Assembly (NCBI GenBank): GCA_026708545.1
Contig: JAPOUT010000109.1
Coordinates: 86,522 to 150,521, forward strand
Source of the DNA: Hyphomicrobiales bacterium
GTDB taxonomy: Bacteria > Pseudomonadota > Alphaproteobacteria > JAPOUT01
Direction of reading: 5' to 3'
DNA length: 64,000 nt
Positions 18,976-62,324 of this stretch are shown here, piece after piece. How positions within the stretch are numbered: position 1 is the first letter of the stretch; the number at the start of each line of letters is the position of its first letter. The notes under the pieces are model-generated. The model had not been told where the DNA came from and did no database searches. It saw only the letters and a program-made list of their open reading frames with translations. A program made the position numbers and the translations under genes.

Positions 18976-21440
18976 GAGTTGCCACCTTGGTGGACGAGGA
19001 CTTCACGCCTTCCTTTGTGGTTTGGTTCAGAAATAATTCCCTGTTCTTGCATTTGCTCGATGATGCGGGCGGACCGGTTATATCCGATGCGAAGTTTGCG
19101 CTGAATATAAGATGTCGATGCGTATTTTTCGTTTTGAACCAGCGCAAGCGCACGATTGTAAAGTTCCTGATCCGCGCTGTTGTCATCGGCAGGTGCGAAG
19201 AAAGCATCAGCGCCGTCTTCGTCGTTCTGCTCGGTAACGTCAAGGAGGTAGTCAGGCGCGCCTTGTCGTTTGAGGTATTTTGCCACCTTCTCTACATCCT
19301 CATCGGAAAGGAATGCGCCATGAATGCGTTCGATACGACCACCGCCGCTCATATAGAGCATGTCGCCACGTCCGAGGAGTTGCTCTGCACCTTGCTCACC
19401 AAGAATGGTTCGGCTGTCGATTTTGGAAGTCATCTGGAAAGAAATGCGGTTTGGGAAGTTTGCCTTAATAGTCCCAGTGATGACATCAACAGAGGGCCGT
19501 TGTGTTGCAGTGATCATGTGGATGCCGGCGGCACGTGCCATTTGGGCAAGGCGCTGGACGGCAATCTCGATTTCTTTGCCGGCCACAAGCATGAGGTCCG
19601 CCATTTCGTCAACGATGACGACGATATAGGGCATGGTTTCAAGGGCAAGTTCCTCTTCCTCGTAGAGTGCTTTACCGGTTTCAGCATCAACACCGGTCTG
19701 AACGGTTCGGGTCAAGCGCTCGCCTTTTTTCGCAGCTTCACGGATTCGCTGATTGTAAGTTTCAATGTTTCGCACACCGAGTTTTGAGATTTTGCGGTAC
19801 CGGCTTTCCATTTCCCTCACGAGCCACTTGAGCGCGACAACAGCTTTCTTAGGATCGGTGACAACCGGCGTCAACAGGTGGGGAATGTCATCGTAGACGG
19901 AAAGCTCGAGCATCTTGGGGTCAATCATGATGAAACGACATTGATCAGGCGTGAGTCGATAGAGCAACGACAACAGCAACGCGTTGATGGCAACGGATTT
20001 CCCCGACCCAGTCGTTCCGGCGATAAGCAGATGCGGCATTCGCGCAAGATCGACGACGATGGGCTCACCCGTGATGCTTTTGCCGAGGATGATGGGTAGT
20101 TTCATCTTATTGCCGTTACCGGCAAATGCGGCACATCCAAGCAATTCGCGCAGGGCAACAAGTTCGCGATGTTCGTTCGGGAGTTCAATGCCGATGGCGT
20201 TGCGCCCAGGCACGACAGCAATGCGGGTCGAAACGGCGCTCATGGAACGCGCAATGTCATCGGCAAGTCCGATGACGCGTGACGACTTTATCCCCGATGC
20301 CGGCTCGAGTTCGTAGAGCGTGACAACCGGACCATTTCTTATGTTGATGATTTTACCGGAGATGCCGAAATCGCCGAGCACGCTCTCGAGCAATGACGTT
20401 TCTTGCAGAAGCTCTTGCCGAGTCCTTTTGTGTTTGGCGTTGCCTTCGGCCGCTTCGAGAAGTCCCAAGGTCGGAGACTGATAGCCCCCTCTCTTTTTCT
20501 TTTTGTCGAATTCAAGACCCGTTTGAACGGCCGCTCTGATTCTCGTCTTGCGGCGGATACTTGAAGTTCGCGCGGGTTTCCTAGTGACCGATTCGCTGTT
20601 TTCCTCGATAATGTCATTAATGTCATTCTCCCCGTTCTCGTCGGGGGCGAATTCGCTATATTTTTGGGGTCGATTTTTAATTTTTTCGATACAATCCAGG
20701 ATTGCTAAGGTTACTGCGGAAATGGTCTTGGAAACGCCCTGGGAGAATACCTTGAAGAAAATCTCGATGAACCTATAACCACCCTCCCGATTCGAATCCT
20801 CCGGATGCGGTTTTTCCATTGTTTCCGCGTAGTTCTTCGTGGCCTGAAGCATGGAGGCATGGGAAGAACGGACAGGCCAGTCCATAGCGAAAGCGAGAAG
20901 TAAAATTGCCGTGCCCCCGGCAATTGCCACGATAGCAATGTTGAGCAAGAATGCGGATTCTATGTAAGGGCCGAGCGCCGCATTGAAAGAACTAACAAGA
21001 AAGCCTCCCACACTTCCACCAACGCCCGCCAAGGTCGCTCCCCAGCTGTCCGGCGCAAGTGCCAAGACCGCAGAGGCAAAAACCGGCGCAAGAACGCAGG
21101 AAATCATGCGCCAGAAGATTCCCCCGACAGGGTCATGGCAAAGTATTCTCCACCCCCACACTGCCAGTGGAAAGCAGAAGAAAAACCCCCCGTAGCCCAA
21201 GTATTGGTAAGACAGGTCCGCCACGACAGCTCCGCCCAGTCCCAGCGGATTTTGCACATCCGCTGAGGTGGCATGGTTCCAACTGGGGTCCTGCGACGAC
21301 CATCCGCTCAACGCCACCAGCATGATAGCGCAAGCAACCAGCAAGCCTACGCCTGCCGTCTCATTCAAGCGTCTGCGCAGAAATACCCGCACCGCTGCCG
21401 GAAGCCATTCGATTCGTGTGGAAGACTGGGTGAAAGCCAT
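18972..21440 (-). CDS. ftsK: DNA translocase FtsK
   Basis: 822 aa. Membrane-anchored dsDNA pump that clears the septum and activates XerCD at dif. About four N-terminal membrane segments lie in residues 25-185. A short charged linker follows, then the motor with Walker A IAGTTGSGKSVAINALL near 465 and Walker B YIVVIVDEMADLMLV near 595. The C-terminal winged-helix gamma domain (YNRALALVQNEKYASTSYIQRKLRIGY) reads KOPS-type sequences. The linker is short compared with E. coli, as is normal in alphaproteobacteria. It is followed directly by lolA. Confidence 0.96.
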   Translation of the reverse strand: MAFTQSSTRIEWLPAAVRVFLRRRLNETAGVGLLVACAIMLVALSGWSSQDPSWNHATSADVQNPLGLGGAVVADLSYQYLGYGGFFFCFPLAVWGWRILCHDPVGGIFWRMISCVLAPVFASAVLALAPDSWGATLAGVGGSVGGFLVSSFNAALGPYIESAFLLNIAIVAIAGGTAILLLAFAMDWPVRSSHASMLQATKNYAETMEKPHPEDSNREGGYRFIEIFFKVFSQGVSKTISAVTLAILDCIEKIKNRPQKYSEFAPDENGENDINDIIEENSESVTRKPARTSSIRRKTRIRAAVQTGLEFDKKKKRGGYQSPTLGLLEAAEGNAKHKRTRQELLQETSLLESVLGDFGISGKIINIRNGPVVTLYELEPASGIKSSRVIGLADDIARSMSAVSTRIAVVPGRNAIGIELPNEHRELVALRELLGCAAFAGNGNKMKLPIILGKSITGEPIVVDLARMPHLLIAGTTGSGKSVAINALLLSLLYRLTPDQCRFIMIDPKMLELSVYDDIPHLLTPVVTDPKKAVVALKWLVREMESRYRKISKLGVRNIETYNQRIREAAKKGERLTRTVQTGVDAETGKALYEEEELALETMPYIVVIVDEMADLMLVAGKEIEIAVQRLAQMARAAGIHMITATQRPSVDVITGTIKANFPNRISFQMTSKIDSRTILGEQGAEQLLGRGDMLYMSGGGRIERIHGAFLSDEDVEKVAKYLKRQGAPDYLLDVTEQNDEDGADAFFAPADDNSADQELYNRALALVQNEKYASTSYIQRKLRIGYNRSARIIEQMQEQGIISEPNHKGRREVLVHQGGNS

Positions 21441-56130: not shown

Positions 56131-57417
56131 TCATTTGCTCCCGTAGATGGGAAAGCGTGACAGCAATGCCGCCACTTTTGTTTTGACATTGTCCTCAACG
56201 TCGCCGTTGTTATCATCGCCGTTTTGCGCGAGGCCGTCGAGGGTTTCGACGATGAGTTCGCCGACTTGTTTGAATTCGTCAACGCCAAAGCCCCGCGTCG
56301 TGCATGCCGGGGATCCCAAACGTATGCCGGATGTTATCGTCGGCTTTTGCGCGTCGAAAGGAATGCCGTTTTTGTTGCATGTGATGCCTGCGCGACCGAG
56401 GGAGATCTCCGCGGCCTTGCCGGTGAGGTTTTTGGAACGCAAGTCAACAAGCAGAAGATGCGTATCGGTCCCGCCGGAGACAATATCAAATCCATGTCCC
56501 TGCAACGTTGACGCCAACTGCTGCGCGTTTGCAATAACCGCGCCCGCATAGTCCGCGAAAGAGGGCCGGAGAGCTTCGCCAAACGCCACCGCCTTTGCCG
56601 CGATCACATGCATGAGCGGTCCGCCCTGGTATCCCGGGAAGACGGCGGAATTGATGCGCTTGCCGAGTTCGTCGTCACGCGAGAGAATCATGCCGCCGCG
56701 AGGGCCTCGCAGGGTTTTGTGCGTGGTCGTTGTCGCAACGTGGGCATGGTCGAGGGGATTGGGATGCTTGCCTCCGGCAACCAAACCGGCAAAGTGCGCC
56801 ATATCGACCATGAGATAAGCGCCGACCTCGTCCGCAATCGCACGGAAGCGTGCAAAGTCGATGATGCGGGGATACGCGGAACCTCCGGTGATGATGAGTT
56901 TGGGCCGATGCTCTTTCGCCAACTGCTCGACTTCGTCATAGTCGATGAGGTGGTCTTGCGCTCGCACGCCGTAGCTAACAGGCTTGAACCATTTACCCGA
57001 AAGATTCACCGGGGCGCCATGGGTAAGATGCCCCCCGGCGCTCAAGGAAAGCCCCATGTAGGTGTCGCCGGGCTGCAACAGGGTGAAGAAAACCTCCTGG
57101 TTGGCCTGCGCACCCGAGTGGGGCTGAACGTTTGCAAAGGAACAGTTGAATAATTTTTTCGCACGCTCGCGCGCGAGATCCTCGGCGATATCGACGAATT
57201 GGCAACCGCCGTAGTAACGCGCGGCGGGATAGCCCTCGGCATATTTGTTGGTGAGGACGGATCCCTGGGTCTCAAGCACGGCGCGCGAGACGATATTCTC
57301 GGACGCGATGAGCTCGATTTCATCGCGCTGCCGCCCGAGTTCGGCGGCAACGGCATTGGCAATCTCCGCATCACCCTGCTTCAAGGTCGCGGTAAAAAAG
57401 TCTTTCGAAACTGTCAT
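56131..57417 (-). CDS. glyA: serine hydroxymethyltransferase
   Basis: 428 aa. PLP enzyme that makes serine from glycine and methylene-tetrahydrofolate, the entry of C1 units into the serine cycle. [29 protein letters not shown], and the PLP Lys in [19 protein letters not shown] near residue 235 are visible. It shares a strand with hprA (26 nt upstream) and sgaA, consistent with a sgaA-hprA-glyA operon. Confidence 0.97.
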
Positions 57418-57443: not shown

Positions 57444-58418
57444 CTACGATGTTACCAAATCCCTTGGCTGTTCGTCCCCAAAAAATGCACGCAAATTTTC
57501 AAGGACGCGCATTCCCATCGCCTCGCGGGTCTCAAGGCTTGCACTTCCCAGATGCGGAAGGAGGACGGCATTTTCGCAAGCGGCAAGCGCGGGTGCAATT
57601 TTGGGCTCGGCGGCATAGACATCAAGACCCGCTCCCGCGATGGTTCCGTTCGAAAGCGCCGATGCGAGCGCCTCCTCGTCAACGATTTCGCCCCGTGCGG
57701 TGTTGATGAGGAACGACCCGGGCTTCATCATGGCGAGACGTTCGCGGTTCATGAGGTTTCGGTTTGAATCTCCCCCGGGGCAGTGAAGCGAAACAAAGTC
57801 GGCCCGCTTGAGCAACTCATCCAGCGTCCCGACTCCCTCTCCGTCGCAGCGCGAGAGCACTGATTCGTTAAGAGACATGGAATCAAAAGCGATGATATTC
57901 ATGCCGAATCCGAAGTGCGCGCGTTCGGCAACCTTCTGGCCAATGCGTCCAAAGCCGACAATGCCGAGTGTCTTGCCTGAAAGTTTCGAACCCAGCATGT
58001 GTGTCGGACGCCATCCGCTCCACTTTCCCGCTCGAACCTCCCGCTCGCCTTCACCCGCGCGCCTTGCCGTCATAAGCATGAGTGTAAGAGCCAAGTCGGC
58101 GGTGCATTCGCTCAGCACTTCTGGCGTGTTGGTCACAACGATTCCGCGGGATTTTGCCGCGAAGACGTCAATATGGCTGTATCCGACTCCGTAGTTTGCC
58201 AGAATGCGCACCCGGGGCTCCGAGACATCCAAGACAGATGCATCTATTTTATCGGTGACTGTCGGCAGAAGGGCGTCCGCCTCGCCGAGTGCCGAGCGCA
58301 GTTGCTCGGCACTGAAAGGTCTGTCGTTCTTGTTCAAGACCGCATCGAATTCCTCGGCGAGCACCTGCTCTATCGATTCAGGCCATCGCCGTGTCACGAT
58401 AACTTTGTGTTTTGCCAT
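57444..58418 (-). CDS. hprA: hydroxypyruvate reductase / D-glycerate dehydrogenase
   Basis: 324 aa, D-2-hydroxyacid dehydrogenase family. NAD(P) loop GIVGFGRIGQKVAERA near residue 152, catalytic Arg in INTARGEIVDEEAL, Glu in the following segment (AAEPKIAPAL), His in LLPHLGSASLETREAM. Reduces hydroxypyruvate to glycerate (and may reduce glyoxylate). It lies between sgaA, which makes hydroxypyruvate, and glyA. Confidence 0.93.
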   Translation of the reverse strand: MAKHKVIVTRRWPESIEQVLAEEFDAVLNKNDRPFSAEQLRSALGEADALLPTVTDKIDASVLDVSEPRVRILANYGVGYSHIDVFAAKSRGIVVTNTPEVLSECTADLALTLMLMTARRAGEGEREVRAGKWSGWRPTHMLGSKLSGKTLGIVGFGRIGQKVAERAHFGFGMNIIAFDSMSLNESVLSRCDGEGVGTLDELLKRADFVSLHCPGGDSNRNLMNRERLAMMKPGSFLINTARGEIVDEEALASALSNGTIAGAGLDVYAAEPKIAPALAACENAVLLPHLGSASLETREAMGMRVLENLRAFFGDEQPRDLVTS

Positions 58419-58493: not shown

Positions 58494-59720
58494 TTATTCC
58501 GCCGCCGCCTGGGTTGCTTGCGTCGCCTGTGGCGGGAACGCGTCCTTATATCCGTTTTTAGCAGTGCGGTAATATTCCTCCGCTGCGGCAACTCCGCTAC
58601 CCGGCTCAACGTTGACGCCGATATCGCGCATGGACATTTCCGTTCCGGTGAGTGCCATCATGATCATAACCTCGTTGAGATCACCGAGATGTCCGATGCG
58701 GAACACTTTCCCCGCGACTTTGGACAACCCCGCTCCCAGCGACACATTGTAGCGGAAGTACGCGCGCTTGATAATCTCGGCGGAGTCGAATCCGTCGGGA
58801 ACGCAGATGGCGGAAACGGTATCGGAATAACTCTTCGGGTCGACGGCACACAGGCGCAATCCCCACGCCGAGACCGCCTTGCGGACTCCTTCGGCAAGGT
58901 AAGCGTGCCGCAGGAAAACGTTCTCAAGCCCCTCCCCAAGTATCTTGTCGACGGAGACACGCAATCCCCGAATCAGCGACATCGGCGGAGTGTAAGGGAA
59001 GTATCCGGTGTCGTTCATGGCAATCATGTCCTTGAAATCGAAGTAACAACGCGGAAATTTTGCGGACTCGACCGCCGCAAGAGCCTTCCGGCTAACACAC
59101 ATGATTGCCAGGCCCGCCGGCAACATAAAGCCTTTCTGCGAGCCTGCAACGGCAGCATCTACGCCCCACTCGTCCATGCGAAAGTCAATACTCCCGATGG
59201 AACTCACTCCGTCTACGAACAACAGTGCCGGGTGGTTGCATTGGTCGAGTGCCTTGCGCACCCCGGCAACATCACTGGTGACGCCTGTCGCCGTCTCATT
59301 GTGGCAGACGAGCACGGCCTTGATTTTGTGTTCGGTATCTTCGGCGAGTTTCTGCGCGTAGACGTCGACAGGGGCTCCCTCACCCCACTCGACGTCGGTG
59401 ACATCGACCTCAAGTCCGAGGCGTTCGCACATGCTGGCCCACAAGAGCGAGAATTGTCCAAATCGCGTCGTGAGAACTTTATCCCCGGGAGAGAGGGTGT
59501 TGGTGAGTGTGGCCTCCCATCCTCCGGTTCCGGAACCGGGGTAGAGAAAAACCCGTCCGTCTTCGGACTTGAAGATTTTGCGGATGTCCTCGAAGAGCGG
59601 GAGGACGAACCGGGGAAGATCCGGCGCCCTGTGATCCTCCATCGGAATGTCGATAGCGCCGCGCACTGACTCCGGGACATTGGTGGGACCCGGAACGAAT
59701 AAACCTCTATTACCTTGCAT
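58494..59720 (-). CDS. sgaA: serine-glyoxylate aminotransferase
   Basis: 408 aa. Class V PLP aminotransferase: serine plus glyoxylate gives hydroxypyruvate plus glycine. FVPGPTNVPESVRGAID at the start, PGSGTGGWEATLTNTL near residue 62, PLP Lys in AVAGSQKGFMLPAGL near 195. The last 15 residues are a Gln/Ala/Thr tail (QATQATQAAAE). A full AAGGAGGT Shine-Dalgarno lies 7 nt upstream. First gene of the minus-strand serine-cycle operon, divergent from mclA. Confidence 0.95.
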   Translation of the reverse strand: MQGNRGLFVPGPTNVPESVRGAIDIPMEDHRAPDLPRFVLPLFEDIRKIFKSEDGRVFLYPGSGTGGWEATLTNTLSPGDKVLTTRFGQFSLLWASMCERLGLEVDVTDVEWGEGAPVDVYAQKLAEDTEHKIKAVLVCHNETATGVTSDVAGVRKALDQCNHPALLFVDGVSSIGSIDFRMDEWGVDAAVAGSQKGFMLPAGLAIMCVSRKALAAVESAKFPRCYFDFKDMIAMNDTGYFPYTPPMSLIRGLRVSVDKILGEGLENVFLRHAYLAEGVRKAVSAWGLRLCAVDPKSYSDTVSAICVPDGFDSAEIIKRAYFRYNVSLGAGLSKVAGKVFRIGHLGDLNEVMIMMALTGTEMSMRDIGVNVEPGSGVAAAEEYYRTAKNGYKDAFPPQATQATQAAAE

Positions 59721-59757: not shown

Positions 59758-59779
59758 ATAACGGTTTTTTTGCCGTTAT
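59758..59779. promoter_or_regulatory. ATAACGG/CCGTTAT dyad in the sgaA-mclA divergent region
   Basis: A perfect 7-bp inverted repeat, ATAACGG (59758-59764) and CCGTTAT (59773-59779), with loop TTTTTTTG, 37 nt upstream of the sgaA ATG. As RNA on the minus strand it is a hairpin with an A-rich loop just before the Shine-Dalgarno; as DNA it could be an operator for both operons. In Methylorubrum the LysR-type QscR controls the corresponding genes; whether a homologue binds here is unknown. Confidence 0.4.
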
Positions 59780-59941
59780 GCCAGACTCTTTTCGACTTTT
59801 TTTGATTTTTATTTGACCGCCTATTTCCCTGCTAAAGGTTTGCGTCACCCCCTTATACGATGCTACCATCGTGGCATGCGGGGAGGAATCAGCGGCGTTG
59901 CCCGCGGCGGCGGCCGTATCGCGTGAAATTAGGAGGAGTAG

Positions 59942-60046
59942 ATGAGGGATTGTCTTCTTTACAGCGGCGGAATTGACCGTTTGCCCCGCCCTGGTTTGGC
60001 GACTGCAAGCAAGACGGGCGGGAAGCCTCGCAAAGACGAAACATGA
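59942..60046 (+). CDS. 34-aa upstream ORF translationally coupled to mclA
   Basis: Too short for the ORF track. ATG at 59942 has a near-perfect AGGAGGAG at 59931-59938. The peptide MRDCLLYSGGIDRLPRPGLA (then 14 more, basic, ending KPRKDET) stops at TGA 60044-60046, sharing ATGA with the mclA ATG at 60043. mclA itself has no Shine-Dalgarno in its last 16 nt. The arrangement predicts that ribosomes reach mclA through this ORF. No membrane segment or known motif. A still smaller ORF (59876-59926, 16 aa) precedes it but lacks a ribosome-binding site. Role of the peptide unknown; it may be only a coupling device. Confidence 0.65.
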   Translation: MRDCLLYSGGIDRLPRPGLATASKTGGKPRKDET

Positions 60047-61023
60047 GTTTCCACACGATAGACCCCGCTCCTGCCCGGCTCAACCGCTGCGAACTCGCAG
60101 TTCCCGGCAACCGCCCCGAAATCTTCGAGAAAGCCGCCCGCTCGGACGCTGATGTCTTGTTCCTCGATCTTGAGGATTCCGTTCCCCCCGACGAGAAAGA
60201 AAACGCCCGCCGCAACATCATTGAAGCGCTGGGCGACATTGACTGGAACAACAAGAGCGTCTCGGTTCGCATCAACGCCTTCGATACCCATTACGCCTAT
60301 CGCGATATCGTGGATGTCCTCGAGCAAGCCGGCGAGCATGTCGACCTCATCATGCTGCCCAAGGCCGGAACCGCATCCGACATCTACGCTCTGGATTTTC
60401 TAACCACCTCGATACAGTCGGCGAAAGGCCGCACCAACCATATCGGCTTTGAAATTATCATTGAGACTGCACTGGGCATGAGTAACATCGATGAAATCGC
60501 CGCCGCAAGCCCCCGCAACGAATCACTGCATTTTGGCGTTGCCGACTATGCCGCTTCAACCGGTGCACGAAGCACGAATATCGGCGGGGCAAATCCCGAC
60601 TATGCCATTCTCTCCGATGTCGACGACACCAACGAGCGAAGGCGCCATCTCGGCGATATGTGGCATTACGCCCTCTCCCGCCTTGTTGTTGCCGCGCGCA
60701 CGAACGGACTGCGTCCCATAGACGGCCCCTTCGGCGACATTACCGATGCCGAAGGACTTACCGCCACCGCCAAACGCGTCGCCATGTTGGGATGCGAAGG
60801 CAAATGGGCAATACATCCCAGCCAAATCGATGCCGTCAACGCCGCCATGACGCCTTCCAAATCCGACATCAAACAGGCCGAGCGCATTCTCAAAGCCCTC
60901 AAGGATGCGGAACGAGAAGGACGTGGCGCGGTTACGCTGGACGGCAAACTTATTGACCGCGTTTCCATTCGCCAAGCGGAGGCGCTTCTTGCGAAGGCGG
61001 AGCAATTATCAAAGCGCAAATGA
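60043..61023 (+). CDS. mclA: malyl-CoA lyase (HpcH/HpaI-CitE family)
   Basis: 326 aa. Cleaves malyl-CoA to acetyl-CoA and glyoxylate (and acts on beta-methylmalyl-CoA in relatives). RLNRCELAVPGNRPEIFEKAA, DVLFLDLEDSVPPDEKENAR (metal-site acids), IGFEIIIETALGMSNIDEIA, FGVADYAASTGARSTNIGG and GLRPIDGPFGDITD, then GKWAIHPSQI, correspond closely to serine-cycle Mcl of methylotrophs. It heads the forward mclA-gck operon and depends on a coupled upstream ORF. The ethylmalonyl-CoA or glyoxylate-assimilation role is an alternative to the serine cycle. Confidence 0.93.
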   Translation: MSFHTIDPAPARLNRCELAVPGNRPEIFEKAARSDADVLFLDLEDSVPPDEKENARRNIIEALGDIDWNNKSVSVRINAFDTHYAYRDIVDVLEQAGEHVDLIMLPKAGTASDIYALDFLTTSIQSAKGRTNHIGFEIIIETALGMSNIDEIAAASPRNESLHFGVADYAASTGARSTNIGGANPDYAILSDVDDTNERRRHLGDMWHYALSRLVVAARTNGLRPIDGPFGDITDAEGLTATAKRVAMLGCEGKWAIHPSQIDAVNAAMTPSKSDIKQAERILKALKDAEREGRGAVTLDGKLIDRVSIRQAEALLAKAEQLSKRK

Positions 61024-62324
61024 GCGCAAACGAAACTACGCAGCAAAAACTGCGGCGGCATGCCAAAGAATTCTTCCTCTCTGGAATCAATGAGGTCGAC
61101 CCCCGCTCTTGTGCCTTTAACTCGATGACGCATTGCCCCCTGCCCACACCGCCGGGGCGACTTTTCCTTATCGCCATCGGTAAAGCCGCTTGCGCCATGA
61201 TGCAAGGTGCGCAGGAATATCTGCAACAAAACGACCACACGGCGCATCACTGCCTGCTTGTCACCGACCATAGCAATTTTAAACAAATTGGCGACTGTGA
61301 ATGCCTCAGTGCAGGGCATCCGGTTCCCGATTCGGACGGTTTGCGTGCAACCAAACGCTTGATAGAAGTTCTCGACACGGCACAAAAAAACGACCTTGTG
61401 CTTGCGTTCATTAGCGGCGGAGGATCGGCGATACTTCCCTGCCCTCCTGATGGAATCTCGTTGGAAGACGAAATCGCGCTCAATCATTTATTGCTGGCAT
61501 CAGGCATTGATATCGAAGGCATCAATCTCATTCGGCAACAATTTTCTTTATTAAAGGGTGGCGGATTGGCACGTTTTGCGGCCCCGGCAAGGGTAGAGGC
61601 ACTCCTGCTTTCAGACGTCCTCAGCGATGATGAACGTGCCATCGCCGGCGGCCTGACCGCCGCTCCATTGGGATCCGTCGCACAAGCGATAACTCTGCTA
61701 AAAAAGCGCGGTTTATGGCAGTCTCTTCCGACTGCCATGCGAGAGGGCCTGCAAACAAGGCAGACAGAGCAACCTTTCCCCGCGCCGGGTAACGCCGGAA
61801 ACGCTCTAATGGCAAGCAATCGAATGTTGACGTTCGCCATCTCCAAAAACGTTAAAAAGAATTATCAAACCTGTTACGAAGAGAAGAGCATGATCGGGGA
61901 TGTCGGCAATGCAGCGCGACAATTGGTCGAGCAAGCAAGCGGGCTGCTTGTCTGCGGCAAACCCGTTGCCCTCGTGTGCGGCGGCGAGACCACCGTGCGT
62001 TTGGGCAATGCAACCGGCCGGGGAGGCCGCAACCAAGAATTGGCGCTTCGTTTTGCCTTGAACGTTGAGAAGCGCGGAGGTTTTCATCTGCCATGGGCGT
62101 TTTTAAGCGGTGGAAGCGACGGCCGTGACGGTCCCACGGATGCAGCAGGCGGCTTGGTGGACGGCGGCAGCATCAACCGGATGCTCTCGGCCGACTTGTC
62201 GCCGGAGGCTTTGTTGAAAGACCACGACTCCTACCGTGCCCTGGATGCCTCCGGAGATTTGCTTCTCACCGGCGCGACAGGAACGAACGTAGCCGATGCA
62301 CAGATTTTTCTAGCCGCTCCTTAG
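61020..62324 (+). CDS. gck: glycerate 2-kinase (MOFRL family)
   Basis: 434 aa. Phosphorylates D-glycerate to 2-phosphoglycerate in this family. GRLFLIAIGKAACAMM near residue 48, FISGGGSAILPCPPDGISL near 130, and the C-terminal MOFRL part VALVCGGETTVRLGNATGRGGRNQELALRFA and LSGGSDGRDGPTDAAGG. It overlaps mclA by ATGA and has no good ribosome-binding site of its own. Its last 59 nt overlap the opposing hypothetical gene. Confidence 0.94.
   Translation: MSANETTQQKLRRHAKEFFLSGINEVDPRSCAFNSMTHCPLPTPPGRLFLIAIGKAACAMMQGAQEYLQQNDHTAHHCLLVTDHSNFKQIGDCECLSAGHPVPDSDGLRATKRLIEVLDTAQKNDLVLAFISGGGSAILPCPPDGISLEDEIALNHLLLASGIDIEGINLIRQQFSLLKGGGLARFAAPARVEALLLSDVLSDDERAIAGGLTAAPLGSVAQAITLLKKRGLWQSLPTAMREGLQTRQTEQPFPAPGNAGNALMASNRMLTFAISKNVKKNYQTCYEEKSMIGDVGNAARQLVEQASGLLVCGKPVALVCGGETTVRLGNATGRGGRNQELALRFALNVEKRGGFHLPWAFLSGGSDGRDGPTDAAGGLVDGGSINRMLSADLSPEALLKDHDSYRALDASGDLLLTGATGTNVADAQIFLAAP

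Follow-up and report, generated by a model that had tools for sequence, protein, structure and literature searches.

A short open reading frame with its own ribosome-binding site ahead of mclA, a probable translated leader in a Hyphomicrobiales bacterium

The mclA locus and its leader frame

In the window (the whole stretch of 64,000 nucleotides that was analysed), mclA and gck are transcribed divergently from genes for an aminotransferase and a hydroxyacid dehydrogenase and from glyA, and together these genes are a serine-cycle set (Table 1). The aminotransferase scores 621.6 bits against BhcA (L-aspartate–glyoxylate aminotransferase), below the cut-off of 650, so that with glyoxylate it may use either serine or aspartate. 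Just upstream of the aminotransferase start, at 59758–59779, is an inverted repeat, ATAACGG-TTTTTTTG-CCGTTAT, which could be an operator or a 5′-UTR hairpin of that gene. It is partly kept (GCGGCTTTTTTGCCGTTGC) in G001, a Hyphomicrobiales MAG (contig JAPOUU010000100.1) and the sole same-genus genome compared, in one pairwise comparison. The mclA–gck junction at 61020–61023 reads ATGA in both species and has no clear Shine-Dalgarno (SD) sequence in the window.

Table 1. Coordinates of the genes and sequence features discussed, numbered from the first nucleotide of the window
Feature	Position	Strand	Basis and comparison with G001
glyA	56131–57417		On the divergent strand
Hydroxyacid dehydrogenase	57444–58418		On the divergent strand
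Aminotransferase	58494–59720	−	Divergent from leader-mclA-gck
Putative promoter of leader-mclA-gck, TTGCGT + 18-nt spacer + TACCAT	59840–59869	+	Identified by eye
SD sequence of the leader ORF, AGGAGG	59931–59936	+	Read directly; 5-nt spacer to ATG; motif and spacer the same in G001
Leader ORF, 34 sense codons (ATG 59942–59944, TGA 60044–60046)	59942–60046	+	Read from sequence; frame open in G001 with 33 codons, one 3-nt indel
GAAAC-ATGA-GTTTC, placing the mclA start codon in the loop of a possible 5-bp hairpin	60038–60051	+	Sequence and predicted fold of the window; weak
ATGA shared by the leader stop and the mclA start	60043–60046	+	Read from sequence; kept in G001; largely fixed by the Met-Ser start of MclA
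mclA, malyl-CoA lyase-like CoA ester lyase, 326 aa (ATG 60043–60045)	60043–61023	+	Pfam HpcH_HpaI, 5e-36; homologues annotated as CoA ester lyase
gck, glycerate 2-kinase-like (DUF4147/MOFRL)	61020–62324	+	Profile matches; ATGA junction with mclA

The leader frame ahead of mclA encodes MRDCLLYSGGIDRLPRPGLATASKTGGKPRKDET. A preliminary description of this DNA had reported a 34-codon ORF here, with a strong ribosome-binding site of its own and an ATGA overlap with mclA, and the sequence coordinates bear this out. Its statement that mclA lacks an SD sequence also holds: the match ahead of the mclA ATG is at best 3 nt, and mclA in G001 has AAGG, 4 nt. We looked for an alternative upstream start of mclA and rejected it, as there is no in-frame ATG, GTG or TTG upstream. 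Two characteristics of an upstream ORF coupled by termination-reinitiation are present in both species, namely a ribosome-binding site of its own (AGGAGG, 5-nt spacer, ATG) and a stop codon that overlaps the downstream start (ATGA), though the second is largely set by the mclA start. Judged from its sequence, the leader is probably a translated cistron, placed for coupling with mclA.

At the position of the putative promoter, G001 has TTGCGT, 18 nt and TATCAT within an otherwise diverged stretch; a sigma-70 scan made no call at 59840–59869. A second candidate, within the leader (TTGACC at 59973), was rejected, the aligned G001 sequence being non-matching. Although weak, the possible GAAAC-AUGA-GUUUC hairpin around the mclA AUG would be in keeping with coupling; its G001 counterpart, GAAACATGAGTTTT, could pair by way of G-U and is absent from the predicted G001 fold.

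Retention in the sister genome and the expectation of chance

Between the window and G001 the MclA proteins are 92% identical. Nucleotide identity is 90% at the mclA start, 65% in the leader and 66–73% in the flanking intergenic sequence. The intergenic region before the ORF contains five alignment gaps of 1–2 nt, and the leader only a single gap of 3 nt, with its start and frame intact. Differences within the leader number 13, 12 and 9 by codon position, so that a third-position bias is absent, and NG86 estimates give dN 0.46 and dS 0.54 for the leader versus dN 0.04 and dS 0.42 for mclA (dN/dS of about 0.85 against 0.1). When amino-acid identity of the leader was compared with random substitution, P was 0.09 overall and 0.14 for codons 2–20, values drawn from two sequences and thus of modest power. 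In this alignment the frame and ribosome site are retained and constraint on the peptide is not detectable; a peptide would drift in this way if translation itself were all that counted.

The main rival to a functional leader is a chance or passive ORF. According to this explanation, mclA starts alone and independently of an SD sequence, and the leader is either untranslated or translated without consequence. We consider this rather unlikely, although several observations fit it. The nucleotide identity of the leader equals that of the intergenic background, and its peptide is near neutral. The overlap comes free with a Met-Ser start: mclA homologues have NTGA at the start in 29 of 34 loci, mostly as ATG-AGY, and because MclA begins Met-Ser the ATGA is not independent evidence. 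Of 32 first genes that are transcribed divergently, 21 have starts without an SD match of at least 4 nt (leftmost start, crude gene calls in the surveyed part of the genome). In that same part, and with the same crude calls, the four-base overlap is a common operon junction, present in 49 of 143 adjacent same-strand pairs; of the 49, 26 are without an SD of at least 4 nt.

How often such a frame arises by chance was estimated by dinucleotide shuffling of the upstream 182 nt. The mclA ATGA stayed fixed, and ORFs of at least 20 codons were counted if they had an SD match of at least 6 nt and ended on the TGA. The shuffles yielded an ORF of this kind in 0.8% of cases with any start codon and in 0.2% with ATG only. 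At one locus this is unusual, yet several would be expected per genome, over about 1000 genes, which fits a passive ORF; retention in the sister is the stronger evidence. Neutral evolution was also simulated, at roughly the divergence seen and under several rates of indels; AGGAGG together with a frame of 25 or more codons reaching the fixed TGA survived in 0.7–3% of runs. That G001 has kept AGGAGG, the spacer, the ATG and the frame therefore argues against a passive ORF, as do the empirical controls, which covered 22 orthologous upstream regions (about 282 kb of G000, the genome of the window, versus 1.4 Mb of G001; genes were called with a crude custom program). Specifically, only about 1 in 16 intergenic ORFs of at least 20 codons without an SD sequence was kept in G001 where the regions were at most 74% identical, and G001 has lost all three of the other ORFs of this kind that lie ahead of mclA.

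Five ORFs with an SD of at least 5 nt were kept in G001, the leader included; among the other four there may be small genes of the ordinary kind that the crude gene caller overlooked. On contig C44 of G000, outside the window, an ORF of 68 codons (69 in G001) lies upstream of 20574–21017 (−). It has a 5-nt SD, overlaps the gene after it by 4 nt and is probably either another leader or a small gene in its own right.

Chance retention of the SD sequence, ATG and ORF at mclA is unlikely but not impossible. Because this is a single comparison of two genomes, the retention in G001 speaks well for selection on translation but falls short of settling it.

Distribution of the leader and searches for a role of its peptide

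Among 32 mclA loci outside the genus (Alphaproteobacteria and Actinobacteria, 50–69% identity), none has a short SD-led ORF that ends on the mclA start, which makes the leader, as far as seen in these sequences, a genus-specific feature. One locus (L006) was considered as leader-like and rejected: its frame begins with GTG, is 146 codons long and has an SD match of 5 nt, and is not comparable. The surroundings of mclA also differ outside the genus, where it follows, for instance, glyA in Ruegeria and folD in Paracoccus. A class-wide search for further orthologues at E ≤ 1e-146 found a single additional genome from outside the genus, with 66% identity; a scan of GTDB contigs returned G001 alone as a close relative, and viral contigs contained no orthologue. 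The preliminary description had proposed aligning related mclA upstream regions to see whether the ORF, its overlap and its peptide are kept. The ORF and ATGA are kept in G001; the peptide is not, and the leader does not extend to the loci outside the genus.

These patterns bear on whether the encoded peptide itself has a function, as had been suggested earlier. A functional microprotein encoded together with mclA and gck would account for the retained ORF and SD sequence. It is hard to reconcile with a dN/dS so far above that of mclA, with a C-terminal half that is almost wholly different between the species (4 of 13 residues kept), or with the profile searches, in which neither leader peptide matched a Pfam or NCBIfam family. 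In addition, a search of the own genome and of the order for homologues of the leader peptide found only the G001 orthologue to be significant, and no convincing copy elsewhere. We consider a microprotein very improbable, and the near-neutral drift speaks against the earlier suggestion of a peptide function.

A regulatory leader peptide is a different proposition, in which ribosome stalling, through amino-acid shortage or a nascent-chain signal, would set mclA–gck output; the earlier suggestion that the leader matches output to codon supply or amino-acid state is of this kind. The first 20 codons are better kept than the last 14, with 13 of 20 residues shared (M-DC---SG-I-RLP-PGLA), and the codons identical in both leaders include AGC GGC, CGT and TTG GCG. 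Yet identity in this first half is not clearly above random substitution, and the other searches at the locus do not support sensing. Neither peptide has an amino-acid codon run of the trpL kind or polyproline; a conserved C-terminal stall motif of the SecM or CruR kind was not found, in a comparison of two peptides with modest power. A terminator/attenuator scan of the locus found no terminator-like site, and an Rfam scan gave one weak match only, far below the gathering score and on the opposite strand, and no riboswitch. RNA fold z-scores from −0.6 to +1.1 indicate no excess structure. As a candidate for a conserved RNA structure, a CCCGCCC/GGGCGGG stem in the leader was rejected; it is missing from G001. 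With no conserved regulatory codon run, terminator, Rfam element or unusual fold, the suggestion of sensing is not upheld, and we judge a regulatory peptide to be very improbable. A mixed case, in which a dedicated leader sets serine-cycle flux in this lineage by loading ribosomes and by some form of sensing in codons 1–20, where the kept residue pattern lies, seems to us to have very little likelihood.

A ribosome-loading role and its relation to known systems

With moderate confidence, we propose that the leader, an upstream ORF, is translated and serves the mclA–gck mRNA as a ribosome-loading cistron, by termination-reinitiation; transcription, translation and the dependence of mclA on the leader are what we infer. 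A promoter about 75–100 bp upstream of the leader start would give an mRNA whose only strong SD sequence is the leader AGGAGG. Ribosomes would load there, read the 34 codons and stop at the TGA, which shares bases with the mclA ATG; mclA would then be initiated by the same ribosomes, or by others given access to the opened start region, and gck would be translated next through the second ATGA junction. The leader peptide would probably be a by-product.

The weak SD sequences at the mclA starts of both species count for coupling, as does the frequency of four-base overlaps among operon junctions here. However, mclA may initiate by itself, because genes without an SD sequence are normal in this genome. 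The preliminary description had held that mclA translation should depend on the leader. The retention of SD sequence, start, frame and length in G001 supports a probably translated leader placed for coupling; dependence is plausible rather than forced, since starts without an SD sequence are ordinary here. Published tests of overlapping gene pairs found strict coupling in 13 of 14, and in E. coli overlap junctions the removal of the SD sequence often lowered reinitiation by 60–90% (PMC6728339). Because SD removal weakened reinitiation in E. coli, an SD-less junction such as that of leader and mclA may couple poorly.

The nearest parallel among the systems considered is uPPE2-ppe2 of M. tuberculosis, where experiment has shown that ppe2 expression depends on translation of the upstream ORF, by termination-reinitiation (PMC11260477). 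As in that pair, the upstream ORF is out of frame, has its own SD sequence and overlaps by AUGA a downstream gene that lacks one (PMC11260477). Unlike in that pair, where a B12 riboswitch controls the upstream ORF, no riboswitch was found at the mclA leader; the genes and peptide are unrelated, and coupling at mclA is presumed. Short upstream ORFs that bring ribosomes to a downstream gene and make no functional peptide have been reviewed (PMC12548453), and the mclA leader would share this role, although none was found described ahead of a malyl-CoA lyase gene in the literature searched. The junction has the same four bases as the ATGA/TGATG overlapping pairs; in contrast to those pairs, whose partners are ordinary protein genes, the upstream partner here is a 34-codon ORF of drifting sequence (PMC6728339). 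In Bordetella, translation of the copper-responsive upstream ORF CruR is needed for expression of the following genes, a likeness to the dependence proposed here; CruR, however, uses a conserved sensing motif, stalling and Rho, and the mclA leader has no conserved motif (PMC9426467). The CruR gap of 162 bp is stated to be incompatible with coupling, whereas the mclA leader overlaps by 4 nt (PMC9426467). Leader and mclA are likely a further case of known upstream-ORF coupling, with the coupling step itself presumed.

As the preliminary description had said, no leader peptide appears to have been described for malyl-CoA lyase; our literature search agrees, having returned no paper with both terms. 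We know of no translational control point for this enzyme in any methylotroph. If coupling is true, a metabolic gene that stands first in a C1-assimilation operon would take in its ribosomes through a short ORF whose sequence is neutral, and annotation pipelines would be missing functional short ORFs that can be seen only by a retained SD sequence and frame around a peptide free to change. At present, the mclA leader offers a modest example, open to experiment, of an already established principle.
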